From Tritrichomonas foetus (taxonomy: Eukaryota > Parabasalia > Tritrichomonadida > Tritrichomonadidae): 64,000 nucleotides of DNA. Below, in pieces: positions 52,501 to 61,767 of the stretch. The stretch spans positions 53,650 to 117,649 of the forward strand of contig MLAK01000089.1 of NCBI GenBank assembly GCA_001839685.1, given 5' to 3'. How positions within the stretch are numbered: the first letter of the stretch is position 1; the number at the start of each line of letters is the position of its first letter. Below the pieces are notes generated by a model. The model was not told the DNA's origin. It was given only the letters and a program-made list of their open reading frames with translations, and ran no database searches. Position numbers and translations under genes: made by a program.

Positions 52501-55357
52501 ATAGTTTTTATATTTTTCATCAACCAATATTACTTTTAATTATGTTGAATGTTCTTATTCGATGTTTCAGTTTTTCAACACAGTTAGGATCAATAGTCAT
52601 GCTAAAGTTATTGTTGATTCCCTCATAAATCTCAATGATATCAATTTTGAAATTGTGTTTGAAACAAATGACTTTTCAATCATTGTTGAAAATTCATCAA
52701 GCTCTATAATTATTGGAGATAATTCCATTAATATAAACAATGCAATTTTTACCGTTAAAAAATACACAGAAAATGATAAAATCATAATCCAAATTCCAAA
52801 AAATACAAATGTTCAATGTGAAAATCCAGAAAACAGTAAATTCTGTGTATTTTTAGAGTCTGAAGAAGAAAATCCTTCAGTTTCTTTTCAAGGAAAGTTC
52901 ACTCAAAGCAATAAATTTGTTCTTAACAAATTAAAAAATCCATCAATTTATATTCATGATACACCAATTTTATGCTGTTCAATAATTTCGAAATCAAATG
53001 ATCTTTCAATCATTTCCAAAGTTTATAATTTAGATATCTTCGGTAATTTCTTTTTTTCTTTCTCTAAAACTTCAAACTTATATATAAGTTATCAAAATGA
53101 TCCCAATTCTGACAATGCTTTGAAGTCAAACTATAATAAAAAGAGTGATTCACTTCATGAAGTTCATTTGAATGGCTGTATTATGGGAAATTCTAATGTT
53201 CACATTACTTTTAATCAACCGAATATTACTTTTATTGTAGATACAATTCTTTTGGATAAAATTGATTCAACTTTAGCAGTTCACAGTTTTTTATCACTTG
53301 AAGGATTTTCTAACTTTGAACTTCGAAATAAAACTATTCAAATTTCACAATTTAATCCAATCATTAGAGTTAATTGTCCAATTGATGAAGCAATTAATTC
53401 AAATAAAGTCCTGGACTTTCTCACAAAAGAGGAAGTTCTGATTAAACTTCCATTCAAACTTCCGAGACAAATTCTAACCTTTTCAAGAAGTCCTGAAACT
53501 CATGGCTTAAAAAGTTCAGTTTTTATTTCGCAAAATCCGAATTATGAAATAGTATTCGCAGTTTTTAGAAATCCACTTGAAGAGCCTGTGAGAATCTGCT
53601 ACAACCTACCAGGTGAATGTGATATCGAAATCAACAATGATACTTTTTTATATGACATTCGAAGTTTAATTACACCAAATGTTACACAATTTGATTTTGA
53701 ATTTGGAATTGGAAATCCACCCGAATTTCCAATAAATTTCGATTATGATGAATTCAATGGGGCCACAATTACGATGTTTTGTCGTACACAAGAAATTGCC
53801 CATTTTAAAGTTGGTTTCAATCGAATAAATGAATTGTATTTATCAGATTGTAATATTAAATTTAGTGATGAAGAAGATTATTCCATAGATAAAGTTATCA
53901 TTGGCGTTGCTTCATCAATTGAAGGTAATGCAAATGGGGTTAAAGTGATCGATTTTGCATATTTTTCGGATTATCATAATATTAAATCATTCAATAATAA
54001 AATTATATTAAACTATGATGGAGACTCAATCACATTTGAAAGAACTGGAATTAACATAGGCAACCTGATAATAGAATCAAACCGTTATAAAGAAATACTT
54101 TTATGTTTCACTAGTGAAGGCCCTAAAACTATAAATATTGGTCCAAATATTTTAGAAATTCCAAGTTTCATTCATCTTTCATTAAATAAAAGTAACAAAG
54201 TTATCCTCAAAAACTGGTGTGAAATGACAAAAGCATCGAATTTGCTGATTTCTTCACCATTTTCAAAAACTATATCATTAAAAGTGACAGAATTTCCAAT
54301 TTATACGCTTCCTGAAATTTCTTCTGAAAATGATAGAATGATAATCATTGATGAATCTATTCTGCCTTTAAAAATCCGCAAGTTTGATTTCTTTAACGAT
54401 GAATTATTATTTGATGTATCTAATTATTCTTTAAATGGGAGCGATTTTGCAGTTTTGATAAGTTTGGTGGAAATGAGTGGTTCATCAGAAATTGAAACAA
54501 GTAAAACTGGTCAGTTGAAAATAGATAACTTGAAAATTAACGATGGTTCAAACATTCGAGTGAATAATGCGAAAATCGGTTCATTGTTATCAATTTCTGG
54601 AAATTCCAGTTTAAATGGACACTTTTCATTTGATGAAACATTAAAAATTGAATTTAGATTTTCATTAAACGTCCTTCCATCAATCTTATTCCCGATGTTT
54701 CCAGACTCTATTCCTTCAAAAATAACTATTGTGAATGATACATCAAGTACTGATGAAAGCATTAAAGAAATATCCGAGAATGATCATCACTTCGATGCAT
54801 ATCCCACTTGTACTTGTCATGCTGAACATCAATTTATTCCTTATCATGAAGCAAATATTGGATTAAATGAAAATAGTATAAATGAAACTGAAAAGAATAA
54901 TCGAACATTTATTTTAGCTAATATTGGATTAAATTGCTTATATTGGCAAAAAAATATCGAACTTGTTGGCTTTGAATCAGAAATTTACAATTATTCCATT
55001 CATTGCAATGACGGCTTTTTAACTATGGAGCAATTTATATCCGTCATCGACATTCCTGACGAAATCACACCTAACATTGAATCACCACCAACGCCGATTT
55101 TTACATTACCTGGTCATGAACATGAACCAATTCCGACTGGTGAAAGTTACAAAATGCGGGGGTTGAGTATCACGGCAATCACTGGAATTATATCTTCATC
55201 TATTTGCGCATTATTAATTATTATTGTTTTGGTGGTCGTAATCACATTGAAACAGAAATACAAGAAAAGGATCCAAAACTCAACCGAAATATCAATTGAA
55301 CATGTGGAAGCAGAACTAGAAGAAAGCTACATTGAAGATGGTACAACAATTTTGTAA
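49503..55357 (+). CDS. Giant type I surface protein, frame split by a 77-bp insertion
   Basis: Two overlapping frames (49503-52628 and from about 52503 to 55357) form one gene. The first starts with a signal peptide (MLLLFYALSSVVARS). The second ends with a transmembrane helix (about 60 residues from the end, ICALLIIIVLVVVITL), a basic stop-transfer (KQKYKKR) and an acidic tail. The ectodomain is Asn/Ile/Phe/Ser-rich with many N-glycosylation-type sites and at least three modules beginning with a Cys pair (CTDMTTSCDGG; LCYSQAPIIDCNG; ICYNLPGECD), consistent with repeated beta-solenoid domains. A 77-bp insertion flanked by 21-bp direct repeats shifts the frame at 52426-52523; removing it gives a seamless 1,924-residue protein. 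Probably a trichomonad surface adhesin-like protein; no named family is claimed. Confidence 0.8.
52426..52523 (+). repeat. 21-bp direct repeats flanking a 56-bp segment (frame-shifting insertion)
   Basis: A 21-bp sequence beginning AGTTTTTATA and ending TTCATCAA occurs at 52426-52446 and 52503-52523. Both copies read FLYFSS in their own gene frame. Deleting 77 bp joins the frames exactly. The unique part holds a 10-bp inverted repeat (ATGGAACCTT / AAGGTTCCAT, 52446-52455 and 52473-52482). Confidence 0.85.
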
Positions 55358-55413
55358 GTAAATATAGAGTATGCAATTTCTATTTATTTTTTTCACATCT
55401 CCTTCATAAAATT

Positions 55414-55455
55414 TTTTGAGTTAATGAAATTTTATATAATTTTATTAACTCAAAA
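55414..55455 (+). terminator. AT-rich stem-loop 3' of the surface-protein gene
   Basis: TTTTGAGTTAAT (55414-55425) and ATTAACTCAAAA (55444-55455) form a perfect 12-bp stem with extra internal pairing, 57 bases after the stop and 11 bases before the transposon end. It may be a 3' UTR structure; function unknown. Confidence 0.35.
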
Positions 55456-55466
55456 GATTTAAATTA

Positions 55467-55480
55467 CAGTCGTTTTCGAA
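55467..55480 (+). repeat. Left terminal inverted repeat of the transposon
   Basis: CAGTCGTTTTCGAA, preceded by TA; matches the right end perfectly over 14 bp. Confidence 0.92.
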
Positions 55481-55590
55481 TTGGTTTTCTTTGTGTTTNG
55501 AAATAGAATTTCAGTATTTCAATGGTTTATATAAGAAACTAGAATATTTTTCGAAAAGCTTTCAAAATGTTTCGATTTGCTTTCCAATGT

Positions 55591-55706
55591 TTTCGAAATA
55601 GAATCTTAACCGATTTTTTTTTCGAAATAGAATTTTAAAATTTGAATAGTTTACAAAACAACCATAATTTGTTTCATAATAAAATTTTTTTGTTTCGAAA
55701 TAGAAT
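55591..55706 (+). repeat. Subterminal TTTCGAAATAGAAT repeats, left side
   Basis: Exact copies at 55591-55604, 55620-55633 and 55693-55706, with a copy containing an ambiguous base near 55497. They are likely transposase-binding sites by analogy to other Tc1/mariner elements with internal direct repeats. Confidence 0.8.
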
Positions 55707-55838
55707 TTTTTTATTAGTGGAATAGTAGATTATTTATCATTTTTGTTAGATGAAATTTTATACCNGACATAAAATATAAACACGAAACACACAAAAATAA
55801 ACTAAACCGACGAGTAGAATTCTTCTTAATTTAATAAT

Positions 55839-55845
55839 AACGTAC
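55839..55845 (+). promoter_or_regulatory. AACGTAC motif upstream of the transposon ORF
   Basis: It lies 61 bases before the ATG at 55907 and matches the core of the host-gene motif TAAACGTAC, suggesting the element uses host-type promoter signals. Confidence 0.3.
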
Positions 55846-55906
55846 GAAGATCAACACACTCAATCACCTTGAAGATTATCTAATTTTTAACACTTCATTT
55901 TTTAAA

Positions 55907-58084
55907 ATGCTTGGACATAAAATCGGCATAAGAAATTTGGGCAACACTTGTTTTGCAGCCTCTGTTTTGCAGCTAATGCTTAATATCACCAAGTTTAACA
56001 AAACATTGCAACAACTCGAATATAAAGATGAAGAAGGAAAACAGATTCTCAAGTTTTTTTCACATACTGAAAATTTCCAAAAGGAAGATCTTGAAGCACT
56101 CCTTGTTACCGGAATGAAATTTGTTGAAAATATTAATCAAATTGAACAAAAAGACGCGCACGAATTTCTTTTAAAATTTTTGGAAAGTATCAATGAACAC
56201 TGTCGTGATCCTAACTGTAGCGATTTATATAACTTGTTTTTAATAGAAAAACAGATTATAACATATTATTCGAATGGTACTGACGAAGAAGAAAATATTT
56301 CCAATGAAAAATTTATTTTCGAAAATGTAAGCCCTGAAATTGGTGATTTACAAAAGCATATCAATTCAATCGCAGAAGCACCACATGTATTAATCTCAGA
56401 TGCTCCTGAACGAATTTCACAGTCGATACGCATTATCAAATCCCCATCAGTTTTGTTGTTCATGATTCGAAGAGTGGAGATCGATGGTGACAATGCACAA
56501 CGAAACACTACACCTGTGAAATACTCTCCTGAAATCATGTATCATGGAAAACAATATCGATTATATGGAGTAATCAATCACAACACAAATCAAATTACTG
56601 ATCCCCAATGGGGCCATTATATTACACACTGTTATGAATTTGCTACAAGCAAAGTATATACTTTCAATGATTCATTAGTGATCGAAGATCAACCAAATGT
56701 TCTATACATCGGACAAGGAAATATGACACCGCAAACTCTTGCTTATATTGTTGCATATATTTCACAAGATGAAATAGATTCATTATTTAGTGCATCAGAA
56801 GGAAGCAACAATCAAAATGGAATACAATACGTAGCACCAGAAGTTAATTCATGTATTCAACAAGTGAACTTTTTAGATAGTCGACAAGAAGATGCACTTG
56901 AAACATTTATTAGAAATGCCCCAAACCCAGAAAGTACACAAGCAACGAGAATTGCATCACAAGATCTTAATGATCTATCAACGCCCATCATTCTTTCGTT
57001 TCCAGAATCAACATCACCCACAGAAGAAAGTGCATCACAAGAAAAGAGAGCATACCAAAAAACAACAAATGACGCAAGAAGATTATTAACAAAACTTTAT
57101 CAAGTAAATGGTGACAAAAAAACACCACTGGAATATTCGGCAGAATCAGGAATTAAGCTTGGAAATTGTAAAAAGTTATTATACCAGCTGAAAAAAGGAG
57201 AATCTATAGAAATTAAACAATATAAAAGGGGAAGAAAATCCAAAATCACACCTCATTTCGCACAATTAATTCATGATGAACTTGAAGAACATTCTACAGA
57301 GTCACTCAGAGAAGTAGCTCGCCAAATTGCTCTTCAAAACGACAGTACCAGTAATGATCAAATTCCATCGTATTCATCCATTTATCGTTATGCAACATCT
57401 CACAGGATTGCTGATGATTTTGGTTGTAATGTTTATTCTTTCAAAGTAGCTTCAATTCGCGGCCCATCATCAAATGCTGAATCAAATAAAGATCTAAGAA
57501 TTGAACGAATTAAACTGCTTAATCATTATATTACTGAGGGATTTGTTTGGTCAGCAGTTGATGAAGTGTCGATCGAAATTGGAACAATTCGCAGAAGAGC
57601 TTGGTCACAAAAAGGAGAAAAAGCCTTTATTAATGTTAAACCACAAGCATATAGATGTTCTGCGATTGCTTCCATATCAAACAATGGAATGTCTTATTGT
57701 CTTCTTGTCCCAGGGACAGTGAATGGAGAACTTTTTCAAGCTTTCATGAAATACTTGATTAACTCACTGCAGAAACAAGGAAATATTGTTTTTTGGATGG
57801 ATAATGCCAAGATTCACAGTCGAATTGAAAATATTGTCCAGAAAGGAAATCATGTTGCTATTTATAATGCTGCATATTCACCAGAGCTCAATCCGATTGA
57901 GCTCATTTTTGGTCATTGGAAGAGTATCATCAAAAGAGAAGTGAAAGACTGGTCAAATGAAATGGATTTATATCAAAAGATAGCTAATTGTTTTAATCAT
58001 ATCGACCCCACTGAAATTCGTAAAGTTATGACTCATGTATCAACCAAGGTATTTGCCAAAGTATTAAACCGTGAAAACATATGA
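55907..58084 (+). CDS. Ubiquitin-specific protease / DDE transposase fusion
   Basis: The 725-residue protein has two enzymes. Residues about 5-285 form a compact USP (peptidase C19): Cys box IGIRNLGNTCFAASVLQ with Cys15, QKDAHEFLL, and His box GHYITH with His237, followed by FND (Asn254-Asp255). After a Ser/Thr-rich linker come two helix-turn-helix-like domains (about 395-435 and 445-500, separated by a GRKSK hook). An IS630/Tc1-type DDE domain follows: Asp552 (AVDEVS), Asp632 (WMDNAKIH), Glu665 (SPELNPIE), spacing DD32E, with a final W-K-x-I-I-K helix. All catalytic residues are intact and there is no stop, so it may be active. The USP could deubiquitinate the transposase or host factors; this is inference. 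Confidence 0.93.
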   Translation: MLGHKIGIRNLGNTCFAASVLQLMLNITKFNKTLQQLEYKDEEGKQILKFFSHTENFQKEDLEALLVTGMKFVENINQIEQKDAHEFLLKFLESINEHCRDPNCSDLYNLFLIEKQIITYYSNGTDEEENISNEKFIFENVSPEIGDLQKHINSIAEAPHVLISDAPERISQSIRIIKSPSVLLFMIRRVEIDGDNAQRNTTPVKYSPEIMYHGKQYRLYGVINHNTNQITDPQWGHYITHCYEFATSKVYTFNDSLVIEDQPNVLYIGQGNMTPQTLAYIVAYISQDEIDSLFSASEGSNNQNGIQYVAPEVNSCIQQVNFLDSRQEDALETFIRNAPNPESTQATRIASQDLNDLSTPIILSFPESTSPTEESASQEKRAYQKTTNDARRLLTKLYQVNGDKKTPLEYSAESGIKLGNCKKLLYQLKKGESIEIKQYKRGRKSKITPHFAQLIHDELEEHSTESLREVARQIALQNDSTSNDQIPSYSSIYRYATSHRIADDFGCNVYSFKVASIRGPSSNAESNKDLRIERIKLLNHYITEGFVWSAVDEVSIEIGTIRRRAWSQKGEKAFINVKPQAYRCSAIASISNNGMSYCLLVPGTVNGELFQAFMKYLINSLQKQGNIVFWMDNAKIHSRIENIVQKGNHVAIYNAAYSPELNPIELIFGHWKSIIKREVKDWSNEMDLYQKIANCFNHIDPTEIRKVMTHVSTKVFAKVLNRENI

Positions 58085-58147
58085 GAATAATTAATATATT
58101 CAACAGAAACATACACTAATAATAAACAATTACATATCAACAGTTTT

Positions 58148-59141
58148 NNNNNNNNNNNNNNNNNNNNNNNNNNNNNNNNNNNNNNNNNNNNNNNNNNNNN
58201 NNNNNNNNNNNNNNNNNNNNNNNNNNNNNNNNNNNNNNNNNNNNNNNNNNNNNNNNNNNNNNNNNNNNNNNNNNNNNNNNNNNNNNNNNNNNNNNNNNNN
58301 NNNNNNNNNNNNNNNNNNNNNNNNNNNNNNNNNNNNNNNNNNNNNNNNNNNNNNNNNNNNNNNNNNNNNNNNNNNNNNNNNNNNNNNNNNNNNNNNNNNN
58401 NNNNNNNNNNNNNNNNNNNNNNNNNNNNNNNNNNNNNNNNNNNNNNNNNNNNNNNNNNNNNNNNNNNNNNNNNNNNNNNNNNNNNNNNNNNNNNNNNNNN
58501 NNNNNNNNNNNNNNNNNNNNNNNNNNNNNNNNNNNNNNNNNNNNNNNNNNNNNNNNNNNNNNNNNNNNNNNNNNNNNNNNNNNNNNNNNNNNNNNNNNNN
58601 NNNNNNNNNNNNNNNNNNNNNNNNNNNNNNNNNNNNNNNNNNNNNNNNNNNNNNNNNNNNNNNNNNNNNNNNNNNNNNNNNNNNNNNNNNNNNNNNNNNN
58701 NNNNNNNNNNNNNNNNNNNNNNNNNNNNNNNNNNNNNNNNNNNNNNNNNNNNNNNNNNNNNNNNNNNNNNNNNNNNNNNNNNNNNNNNNNNNNNNNNNNN
58801 NNNNNNNNNNNNNNNNNNNNNNNNNNNNNNNNNNNNNNNNNNNNNNNNNNNNNNNNNNNNNNNNNNNNNNNNNNNNNNNNNNNNNNNNNNNNNNNNNNNN
58901 NNNNNNNNNNNNNNNNNNNNNNNNNNNNNNNNNNNNNNNNNNNNNNNNNNNNNNNNNNNNNNNNNNNNNNNNNNNNNNNNNNNNNNNNNNNNNNNNNNNN
59001 NNNNNNNNNNNNNNNNNNNNNNNNNNNNNNNNNNNNNNNNNNNNNNNNNNNNNNNNNNNNNNNNNNNNNNNNNNNNNNNNNNNNNNNNNNNNNNNNNNNN
59101 NNNNNNNNNNNNNNNNNNNNNNNNNNNNNNNNNNNNNNNNN
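58148..59141. other. Assembly gap inside the transposon
   Basis: 994 N bases. Any second ORF of the element would be hidden here. Confidence 0.99.
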
Positions 59142-59253
59142 TCGAATATAGTTTTTTATTTCTCTACATAAAAGTCAACTAAATCGTTATTCATAAGCTA
59201 AATCTCTACGATTTTTTGTATTTTTTTATTTTTATGCCAAAGTGTGTGGTTTT

Positions 59254-59280
59254 CGCGAGGTGAGCTTGGCTCACCTCGCG
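59254..59280. repeat. Perfect GC-rich hairpin in the transposon
   Basis: CGCGAGGTGAGC and its exact reverse complement are separated by TTG, a 12-bp stem with a 3-nt loop, the most GC-rich structure in this region. It lies between the gap and the right end. It could be an RNA terminator, a binding site or a remnant of another insertion. Confidence 0.85.
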
Positions 59281-59387
59281 ATTCAATTTTGAACTTTTTG
59301 AGATAACTCATAGAAAAAGATTGATTTTTGTGAAATTTTAAATCGGAACAAAATTATTTTATTTTGAAAAATTTTTCGGTTAATGAA

Positions 59388-59496
59388 ATTCTATTTCGAA
59401 ACAAAATAATTCAATTTCGATAAAAAAAAANTTTATTTNGAAANATAAAACCGATAGGAAATTCTATTTCGAAAACTGAAATATTCTATTTCGAAA
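59388..59496 (-). repeat. Subterminal TTTCGAAATAGAAT repeats, right side
   Basis: Inverted copies at 59388-59401, 59461-59474 and 59483-59496, mirroring those at the left end. Confidence 0.85.
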
Positions 59497-59503
59497 ACGA
59501 CTG
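59490..59503 (-). repeat. Right terminal inverted repeat of the transposon
   Basis: TTCGAAAACGACTG on this strand, followed by TA. Confidence 0.92.
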
Positions 59504-59505
59504 TA

Positions 59506-59850: not shown

Positions 59851-61767
59851 TTACTTACCAAGCCTTGGAATTGGAGGCTTTTTGGTCGGAGGCATTTTGA
59901 ACTTTGTTAGTCCAGGAGTTGAGCCCACACTTGCTGGTGGATTATTTTTCGCCAACAAAGAAGTTGATCTTTTCCTTTTCATGTCATTTAGAAAACTTGA
60001 TGATCCATGTGGTGCACCTTTATAGAACTGTCTGTTTTTTACGACATCCATTGCGCTTGGAACAACACTTTTTTGATTTAAAGTTGGCAAACTTGAAGAA
60101 TTTGCTTTTGAATTAAATAAATCGGCATCTTTCGTCACCTTTTGAATGTAGTCAAATGTTTTTTCACAAAAAGATGCGGTTTTTCTGACTCGAAACTTAA
60201 CATTTAAACTATTTAAAGTATTGTTGATATTTTTGCTAAAGTTCAAAAAAGCGAAATTCGCAGATTTTATTGTACTCAACTGTTTAAAGTCTTTATCGTT
60301 CAAATTTTGATTATTTAAGTTATTATTGTTTTGATTGTTTGCGAAATTAAGTTCAGAAATGTCTTTATGAAAGAAATTGTCGAGGAATTTAAGGGAAACA
60401 CCAATTGGCTGTTCTTTTTGAAGAGTAAGTGAATCTGCGCCTTGGATCCATTTATGCTTAAGTACCTGTTCGGCTGTTAAGCGATCTTCTGGATTAACTG
60501 TTATCAATTTTGAAATTAATTCTCTTAGGTTTTCGCTTAAATAAGAAGGAATTTTGTATTCAGCTGATTTAATTTGTTGAATGATTTGCGCCTGATCTTT
60601 ACTGGTCCAGGGAAGTTGTCCAGTTACCATTGCAAAGAGAATTACACCAATAGACCACATATCGCTCTTTTGCCCATTGTATGGTGATCTACTGATGCAT
60701 TCTGGTGATGCATAAGAAGCAGTTCCACATGGTGTTAAAACTAAATTACTGTCAGTATCTTCATTACTTTCTATTTCATTTTTCAATTCATTGTTATCTT
60801 CTTCTTTTAGGTTTTCATCATTTTTGTTGTTTTGGCATTGATTTTCATTTGAATCTTCCTGTTCTTCTGCTTCCTCTTCCTCTTCTTCCTCATATTCATC
60901 TTCTTCGTCTTCGGAATTTGGATTATCATCAAAAATTCTCTTAATTTCTTTCATTTTCATTCTCATACTTTTCGAAAGCGAAAAATCTTCATATTCGGGA
61001 TCATTTTTCATTTTATTATTTTTTTTATCATCTTTGTTGTTATTATTTCTTTTTGTTTTCTTTCTTCTTTTCTTCTTTACTATTTTATTATTTAAATTTT
61101 CGTTTTCATTTTCTTCATTTATTGAAAACTGTTTCATATTATTTGTTTGTTCGTCATTATTGATAATTTTGTAATTATTTTTCATTATCGAGTTTCTTGA
61201 AATGGAGCAAGGCTTATTTTCTTTTTGTGAATTTTTTGAATCCCTTCCAGTCACTTTTTGTGAACTTTTTAAAGGAACATATCTTGCAAACCCGAAATCA
61301 CTTATTTTTGCTGCTCCTGTTTCATCGAGAAGAATATTTTCTGGCTTTAAATCTCGATGCATAGCCCCGATTGAGTGAATATAATTTACGCCATCCATGA
61401 TTTGTTTAAAGAGGAATTTGGCCTCTTGCTCGGAGAGAAACTTTTTATCGATGATGTGATTGAATAAATCGCCGTTTGGACAGTATTCCATGACCACATA
61501 AATATTAAAATCGTCGCGCAAAATATCAACAAACTGGACGATGTTTGGATGCCTCATTTGGTGTAGAACTCTTATTTCGCTTTCGAAGTGCTCGAGAACT
61601 GACGTCTTTGAGAAGGAAGATTGAGGGACAATTTTGATTGCATATTCGCGGCCATCTTTAACGTGTTCGGCGAGATGGACAACTGAGAATGATCCAGAAC
61701 CAAGAAATTTGTGTAGTTTGTAGGGTCCAATTTGTGAAGGAACCTTTGTTTTGCCTCTATCTTTCAT
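59851..61767 (-). CDS. CAMK-like Ser/Thr protein kinase with large activation-loop insertion
   Basis: The 638-residue protein starts at the ATG at 61767; codons upstream begin with TTG. Kinase motifs are intact: glycine loop LGSGSFSVV, Lys45 (YAIKI), HRDLKPEN (Asp139), DFG (Asp157), SPE, DMWSIGVILF and a C-terminal HKWI motif typical of CAMK/AMPK-related kinases. Between DFGFARYVP and LTPCGTASYASPE lies an extra segment of about 180 residues (roughly 165-343): basic Lys/Asn-rich (KKKRRKKTKR) then acidic Glu-rich. Normal loops have about 10 residues there. The Asn-rich and Pro/Lys-rich C-terminal tail has no known domain. It is an active kinase by sequence; the insert may regulate it or localise it to the nucleus. 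Confidence 0.9.
   Translation of the reverse strand: MKDRGKTKVPSQIGPYKLHKFLGSGSFSVVHLAEHVKDGREYAIKIVPQSSFSKTSVLEHFESEIRVLHQMRHPNIVQFVDILRDDFNIYVVMEYCPNGDLFNHIIDKKFLSEQEAKFLFKQIMDGVNYIHSIGAMHRDLKPENILLDETGAAKISDFGFARYVPLKSSQKVTGRDSKNSQKENKPCSISRNSIMKNNYKIINNDEQTNNMKQFSINEENENENLNNKIVKKKRRKKTKRNNNNKDDKKNNKMKNDPEYEDFSLSKSMRMKMKEIKRIFDDNPNSEDEEDEYEEEEEEEAEEQEDSNENQCQNNKNDENLKEEDNNELKNEIESNEDTDSNLVLTPCGTASYASPECISRSPYNGQKSDMWSIGVILFAMVTGQLPWTSKDQAQIIQQIKSAEYKIPSYLSENLRELISKLITVNPEDRLTAEQVLKHKWIQGADSLTLQKEQPIGVSLKFLDNFFHKDISELNFANNQNNNNLNNQNLNDKDFKQLSTIKSANFAFLNFSKNINNTLNSLNVKFRVRKTASFCEKTFDYIQKVTKDADLFNSKANSSSLPTLNQKSVVPSAMDVVKNRQFYKGAPHGSSSFLNDMKRKRSTSLLAKNNPPASVGSTPGLTKFKMPPTKKPPIPRLGK

Follow-up and report, generated by a model that had tools for sequence, protein, structure and literature searches.

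A Tritrichomonas foetus transposon with a predicted ubiquitin-specific protease fused to an IS630/Tc1/mariner transposase

What could a DNA transposon gain from a ubiquitin-specific protease (USP) borne on the same polypeptide as its transposase, and is such a protein a conserved product at all? The question is raised by a locus in the cattle parasite Tritrichomonas foetus. The window, the whole stretch of 64,000 nucleotides that was analysed (C71:53650-117649), belongs to a genome of 63.7 Mb in 1064 contigs. Between positions 55467 and 59503 it holds a transposon that is flanked by TA and has perfect inverted ends of 14 bp, together with an intact open reading frame (ORF) of 725 codons. The reading favoured here is a cut-and-paste transposon of the IS630/Tc1/mariner group that encodes one protein with an N-terminal USP; on balance, this USP probably acts in cis to deubiquitinate the transposase or its complex. 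The protease is a deubiquitinase by prediction from its sequence; the element has apparently been mobile recently.

The element and its protein

The layout of the window copy is as follows (coordinates, strand, feature).

55465..55466, no strand: left TA target-site duplication; TA is at the USP-side end in all 9 long copies, and the flanks differ
55467..55480, plus: left terminal inverted repeat (TIR) CAGTCGTTTTCGAA, 14 bp, perfect
55496..55706, plus: left subterminal repeats TTTCGAAATAGAAT at 55496 (one N), 55591, 55620 and 55693
55907..58084, plus: single ORF, 725 aa, USP-transposase fusion
55907..56776, plus: USP / peptidase C19 domain, residues 1-290; Pfam UCH match, USP2 boxes aligned, purifying selection
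56777..57040, plus: linker, residues 291-378, the lowest conservation between the two lineages
57041..57532, plus: putative helix-turn-helix (HTH) region of the transposase, residues 379-542
57533..58081, plus: DDE domain (D552, D632, E665) with a mariner-like fold
58148..59141, no strand: assembly gap, 994 Ns (about 242 bp in the C627 copy)
59388..59496, minus: inward subterminal repeats at 59388, 59461 and 59483
59490..59503, minus: right TIR
59504..59505, no strand: right TA target-site duplication

An earlier note on this DNA had described the perfect 14-bp inverted ends, the TA duplications, inward repeats on both sides and the 725-codon ORF with a USP set (C15, H237, N254/D255) followed by D552/D632/E665, all of which were confirmed. 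The Pfam UCH match covers profile positions 1-254 of 254 (E 6e-24), and the Cys, His and Asn/Asp boxes of USP2 align with the window protein, which identifies the N-terminal part as a USP of peptidase family C19. The catalytic set is identical in the diverged copy on C373, and N10 sits at what we take to be the place of the oxyanion Asn. The Pfam scan of the fusion protein found UCH and neither Ulp1 nor OTU; a transposase_11 / DDE_Tnp_1 domain was likewise absent from the protein by Pfam and had 0 matches in the host genome.

The C-terminal part carries the DDE/D catalytic domain of the IS630/Tc1/mariner group (Pfam DDE_3, E 6e-23), with D552, D632 and E665 invariant in all six aligned proteins and a mariner fold by structure comparison of the predicted model. 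The TIRs at both ends are those expected of this group, as are the TA duplications, which were found at both ends of five long copies (C71, C202, C340, C627, C826). The HTH region is helical in the predicted model (residues 388-498) and matches Pfam HTH_32 under its cut-off (E 0.007); Mos1 complexes align with the model from residue 382-385, but with a root-mean-square deviation of about 26. Subfamilies of the group are named by the spacing of the catalytic residues (DD34E, DD34D and so on). The label DD32E in the earlier note is correct for the 32-residue D-to-E spacing of the window protein and does not define the group, because the spacing is 45 in the ENA relative P0003; the fixed spacing of a named subfamily is thus not seen.

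The right end reads TTCGAAAACGACTG and then TA, finishing at 59505. Inward TTTCGAAATAGAAT repeats number four on the left side, one of them with an N, and three on the right; the non-coding ends of the C627 copy contain six instances of the 12-base core TTCGAAATAGAA, whereas none of 500 dinucleotide shuffles contains any. These repeats are candidate transposase-binding sites. The C627 copy is nearly free of gaps (3285 bp, 2 Ns, TA on both sides, ORF 441-2618, 667 bp downstream of the ORF). By comparison with it, 994 is not the true length of the gap in the window copy, to which about 242 bp correspond. The ORF list of the C627 copy contains no ATG-started ORF of more than 40 aa overlapping the gap region, and its remaining ATG-started frames of at least 40 aa reach at most 90 aa. 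A second gene hidden in the N gap is ruled out for that copy.

The sequence ACACTTCATTTT, which occupies 55887-55906 immediately upstream of the ATG, is conserved among the window copy, C373 and C226 despite much divergence of the surrounding non-coding sequence. It contains TCATTT, which we take to resemble the trichomonad initiator, and is a possible core promoter; that reading is weakened by the presence of TCA[CT][AT] within 30 bases upstream in only 5 of 22 long ORFs of the window, the fusion ORF included. An imperfect palindrome at 55409-55460, with two adjoining 26-bp arms that are 88% complementary, lies immediately left of the insertion. The neighbours of the element are a 931-aa ORF (52562-55357), without a Pfam match at 1e-3, on one side and a protein kinase on the other strand (59851-61767) on the other.

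Copies, relatives and selection

The full 725-aa protein was found at 100% identity in 8 of the 33 listed matches, on eight contigs (C21, C71, C169, C202, C281, C340, C627, C849), and outside Ns not one nucleotide differs among their 2178-nt ORFs. USP-side flanks of the 9 long copies are all different and all end in TA. Further listed matches are the internally deleted C826 (residues 1-677), a 5' fragment on C393, the diverged C373 (two rows), C226, C580 (four rows) and fragments on C438 (two rows) and C615. C580 is decayed and retains parts of both halves in order, with stops; C438 includes a transposase-only fragment of 261 bp at 75% identity. Separate USP and transposase copies were not seen among the listed matches, and the USP is not confined to the window copy, being present in other copies, in C373 and in P0003. 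On both counts the proposal in the earlier note of a real mobile element, with the fusion as its conserved product, is borne out by the eight full copies, diverged C373, decayed C580 and P0003.

A 16-base TA+TIR pattern has 48 sites in the genome, against 0 for the reversed control. Grouped by eye, these form 5 long pairs, 13 pairs of 754-758 bp, one 1600-bp pair and 10 single ends. The count of copies with both ends and TA that the earlier note had called for gives five long ones, C826 among them. Two of the 13 short copies were read (L065, L066); they retain about 250 bp at the left end and about 220 bp at the right, with no match to any of the ORF and no ATG-started frame above 61 aa. Since the 13 short copies share the ends, the family was probably mobilised in trans, and they look like non-autonomous copies moved in this way. 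A search with the two flanks of the window copy joined together found just their original positions on C71, and hence no paralogous empty site. On C281 (L025, 2818-2885) a full copy directly follows a 65-bp piece of a second left end of the family (92% identical), as though it had inserted into it; the far side lies in an N gap.

A comparison by eye of the 73 DDE_3 and 143 UCH rows listed gave no further pair closer than 5 kb. Among the listed matches, the closest unrelated pairs seen are on C481 (5.5 kb) and C121 (5.8 kb), and there is a USP some 5.5 kb upstream of the C826 copy. The UCH listing is not exhaustive, since the copies at C627, C849, C826 and C373 are outside it. The host genome holds at least 143 UCH matches, of which 6 of those listed are copies of the element and well over 100 are not, a large USP set for a protist. 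The transposase is far from other host DDE_3 proteins, being matched by 2 of the 20 other loci compared (L039-L058; 43 further listed rows fall outside this comparison) at 27-32%.

Beyond the host, protein searches yielded P0003 (ENA, 587 aa, on a 3508-base contig; 32% overall identity). It combines the C-terminal half of UCH (2e-16; profile positions 142-243, with the His and Asp boxes) with a linker of similar length and a DDE_3 transposase (9e-24), and since both domains occur in so distant a relative, the fusion is probably older than T. foetus. P0005 (482 aa) starts in a part aligning with the USP tail and has no UCH match of its own, P0004 starts in the HTH, and P0006 to P0008, DDE_3 proteins that are more remotely related, lack a UCH domain. 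In viral contigs, query A4 found 6 loci, all with the transposase part only (residues 516-686), and query P0003 found none. For the linker, the fraction of 2000 shuffles reaching the score was 0.10 for P0001-P0003, 0.36 for P0001-P0005 (0.21 for a longer piece), 0.02 for P0002-P0003 and 0.0025 for P0002-P0005, which is only suggestive of a single origin of the fusion. In the C-terminal half of the USP, both P0001 and P0002 score higher with P0003 than any of 2000 shuffles, as any two USPs may.

C373 carries a continuous 651-aa ORF of the same design with both domains, 64% identical to the window protein, and the catalytic residues of both enzymes are intact in the two. The sister of C373 is C226 (94% in the USP), of which one end can still be recognised and the transposase half falls in an N gap. 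Ratios of nonsynonymous to synonymous substitution (dN/dS) were taken from NG86 only, maximum-likelihood values being unstable. Between C71 and C373 the approximate ratios are 0.16 for the USP (dN 0.34, dS 2.1; bootstrap 0.09-0.28, 83/100 replicates computable), 0.24 for the linker (0.12-0.43, 85/100), 0.14 for the HTH (0.07-0.23, 95/100) and 0.02 for the DDE part (0.02-0.08, only 58/100, dS saturated); C71 against C226 gives 0.15 for the USP. As far as such approximate values go, the comparison shows purifying selection on the USP between the two lineages. USP substitutions fall 101/59/152 by codon position (chi-square p 9e-10), a bias that, taken alone, is a sign of selection acting on the reading frame of the USP. 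Selection of this kind indicates that the predicted protease mattered to the element.

Weighing the explanations

Several results weigh against a mobile fusion with a working protease. Of the 33 listed matches, 13 extend over the USP part only, at 19-35%. The N run starts at element position 2682 in 5 of the 9 long copies and at 2782 in 2, so that part of the identity among the copies may stem from repeated use of a single repeat contig in the assembly. The P0003 gene model begins after the catalytic-Cys half of the USP, which may lie upstream of it. In C373 the transposase has two in-frame deletions (65 and 12 residues), and because of these and its worn ends this copy is probably immobile. 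Conservation is weaker in the USP (56% identity) than in the DDE part (82%). The ratios are approximate, dS being close to saturation or beyond it, and C373 against C226 gives a USP ratio of 0.48 (0.23-1.05; codon positions 14/3/10), which is uninformative or relaxed and shows no clear constraint. The AlphaFold model from 6 sequences has a mean pLDDT of 53.5, with residues 110-328 below 50 and a poor USP part; no USP is among the 50 structure-comparison matches listed for it. As a separate observation, C373 (L022, 2607-4562; annotated TRFO_27008) is an old, end-worn copy whose frame is open despite its deletions, a candidate for domestication or simply not yet decayed.

It is scarcely credible that the USP is a host exon captured without function, or a misassembled join. 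Well over 100 host USP matches offer material for capture, but among the matches listed the other host USPs resemble that of the element at only 19-35%. Misassembly or a chance join was rejected on eight identical copies at distinct sites with differing flanks, purifying selection in a diverged lineage and the same order of the two domains in the remote relative P0003. An inactive USP, or one serving as a ubiquitin-binding module that guides the complex to ubiquitinated sites, is improbable; with about 290 aa the domain is small, and it has diverged from the USPs of known structure (1.5e-6 for the best PDB match of a single sequence), but the window copy and C373 both retain intact Cys, His and Asn/Asp boxes, the opposite of the usual pseudo-enzyme. 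Rather doubtful is a USP whose substrates are not the transposase but chromatin or repair factors, such as ubiquitinated histones and damage-response proteins, at the donor or target site. USP28 is a nuclear DNA-damage deubiquitinase, and USP25/USP28 is the best PDB match of the family profile (1.5e-9); this match spans no more than the C-terminal half of the USP, a region in which P0003 contributes to the profile, and on its own the window protein matches USP2 better. Repair factors were also suggested by Bao and colleagues, in the available text of PMC2836005, as downstream of transposon-borne Ulp1/OTU proteases, which counts for this alternative.

Under the favoured reading, removal of ubiquitin in cis, the HTH part would bind the TTTCGAAATAGAAT repeats while the DDE part would cut at CAGTCG and insert at TA. 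The USP, held on the transposon-DNA complex, would strip the transposase or its bound neighbours of ubiquitin, and this would prolong or license transposition where the host would clear the transposase. The earlier note had put forward two hypothetical functions, that the protease may shield the transposase from degradation or may alter the chromatin of target sites.

Known systems and significance

Compared with IS630/Tc1/mariner elements such as the solved Mos1, Metnase/SETMAR and Sleeping Beauty, the T. foetus element has an extra N-terminal USP and DD32E spacing. It shares the Cys, His and Asn/Asp boxes with USP25/USP28 and USP2, which are cellular enzymes without a transposase and match it weakly in sequence. 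Ulp1 or OTU domains occur in Ginger1, Mutator (MULE) elements and Helitrons, according to the available text of PMC2836005; these too are mobile elements with a ubiquitin- or SUMO-removing cysteine protease, but of other protease families and with other transposases, the Ginger1 protease being C-terminal. The same 2010 paper cites T. vaginalis XP_001314237.1 as a transposase_11 + Peptidase C19 protein, likewise a ubiquitin-specific peptidase joined to a transposase in a parabasalid; it is known here by that description alone, and its transposase (PF01609) is of another superfamily. The earlier note had not recognised a C19 USP on a Tc1/mariner/IS630 transposase as described, and no counter-example was found in a literature search that left out most subscription papers; any wider novelty of USP-transposase proteins is weakened by the T. 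vaginalis precedent. To our reading, this is the first USP on a Tc1/mariner/IS630 chassis among known protease-bearing transposons. DNA transposons make up about 30% of the T. foetus KV-1 genome, for which a chromosome assembly is published (PMC11415386, whose main text, as available, lacks the terms mariner and ubiquitin), and IS481EU transposases of another superfamily are reported in T. foetus in the available text of PMC10045372.

More tentatively, parabasalid transposons of two unrelated transposase superfamilies may each have taken up a USP, with ubiquitin governing transposition; a transposase carrying its own deubiquitinase would outlast host turnover, and the fusion would persist across distant lineages as one ancient mobile-element class. 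The element is compact, with protease and transposase on one chain, so that a single active-site change would separate the two functions. The fusion family gives a tangible way of asking whether mobile DNA draws on the ubiquitin system when it moves.

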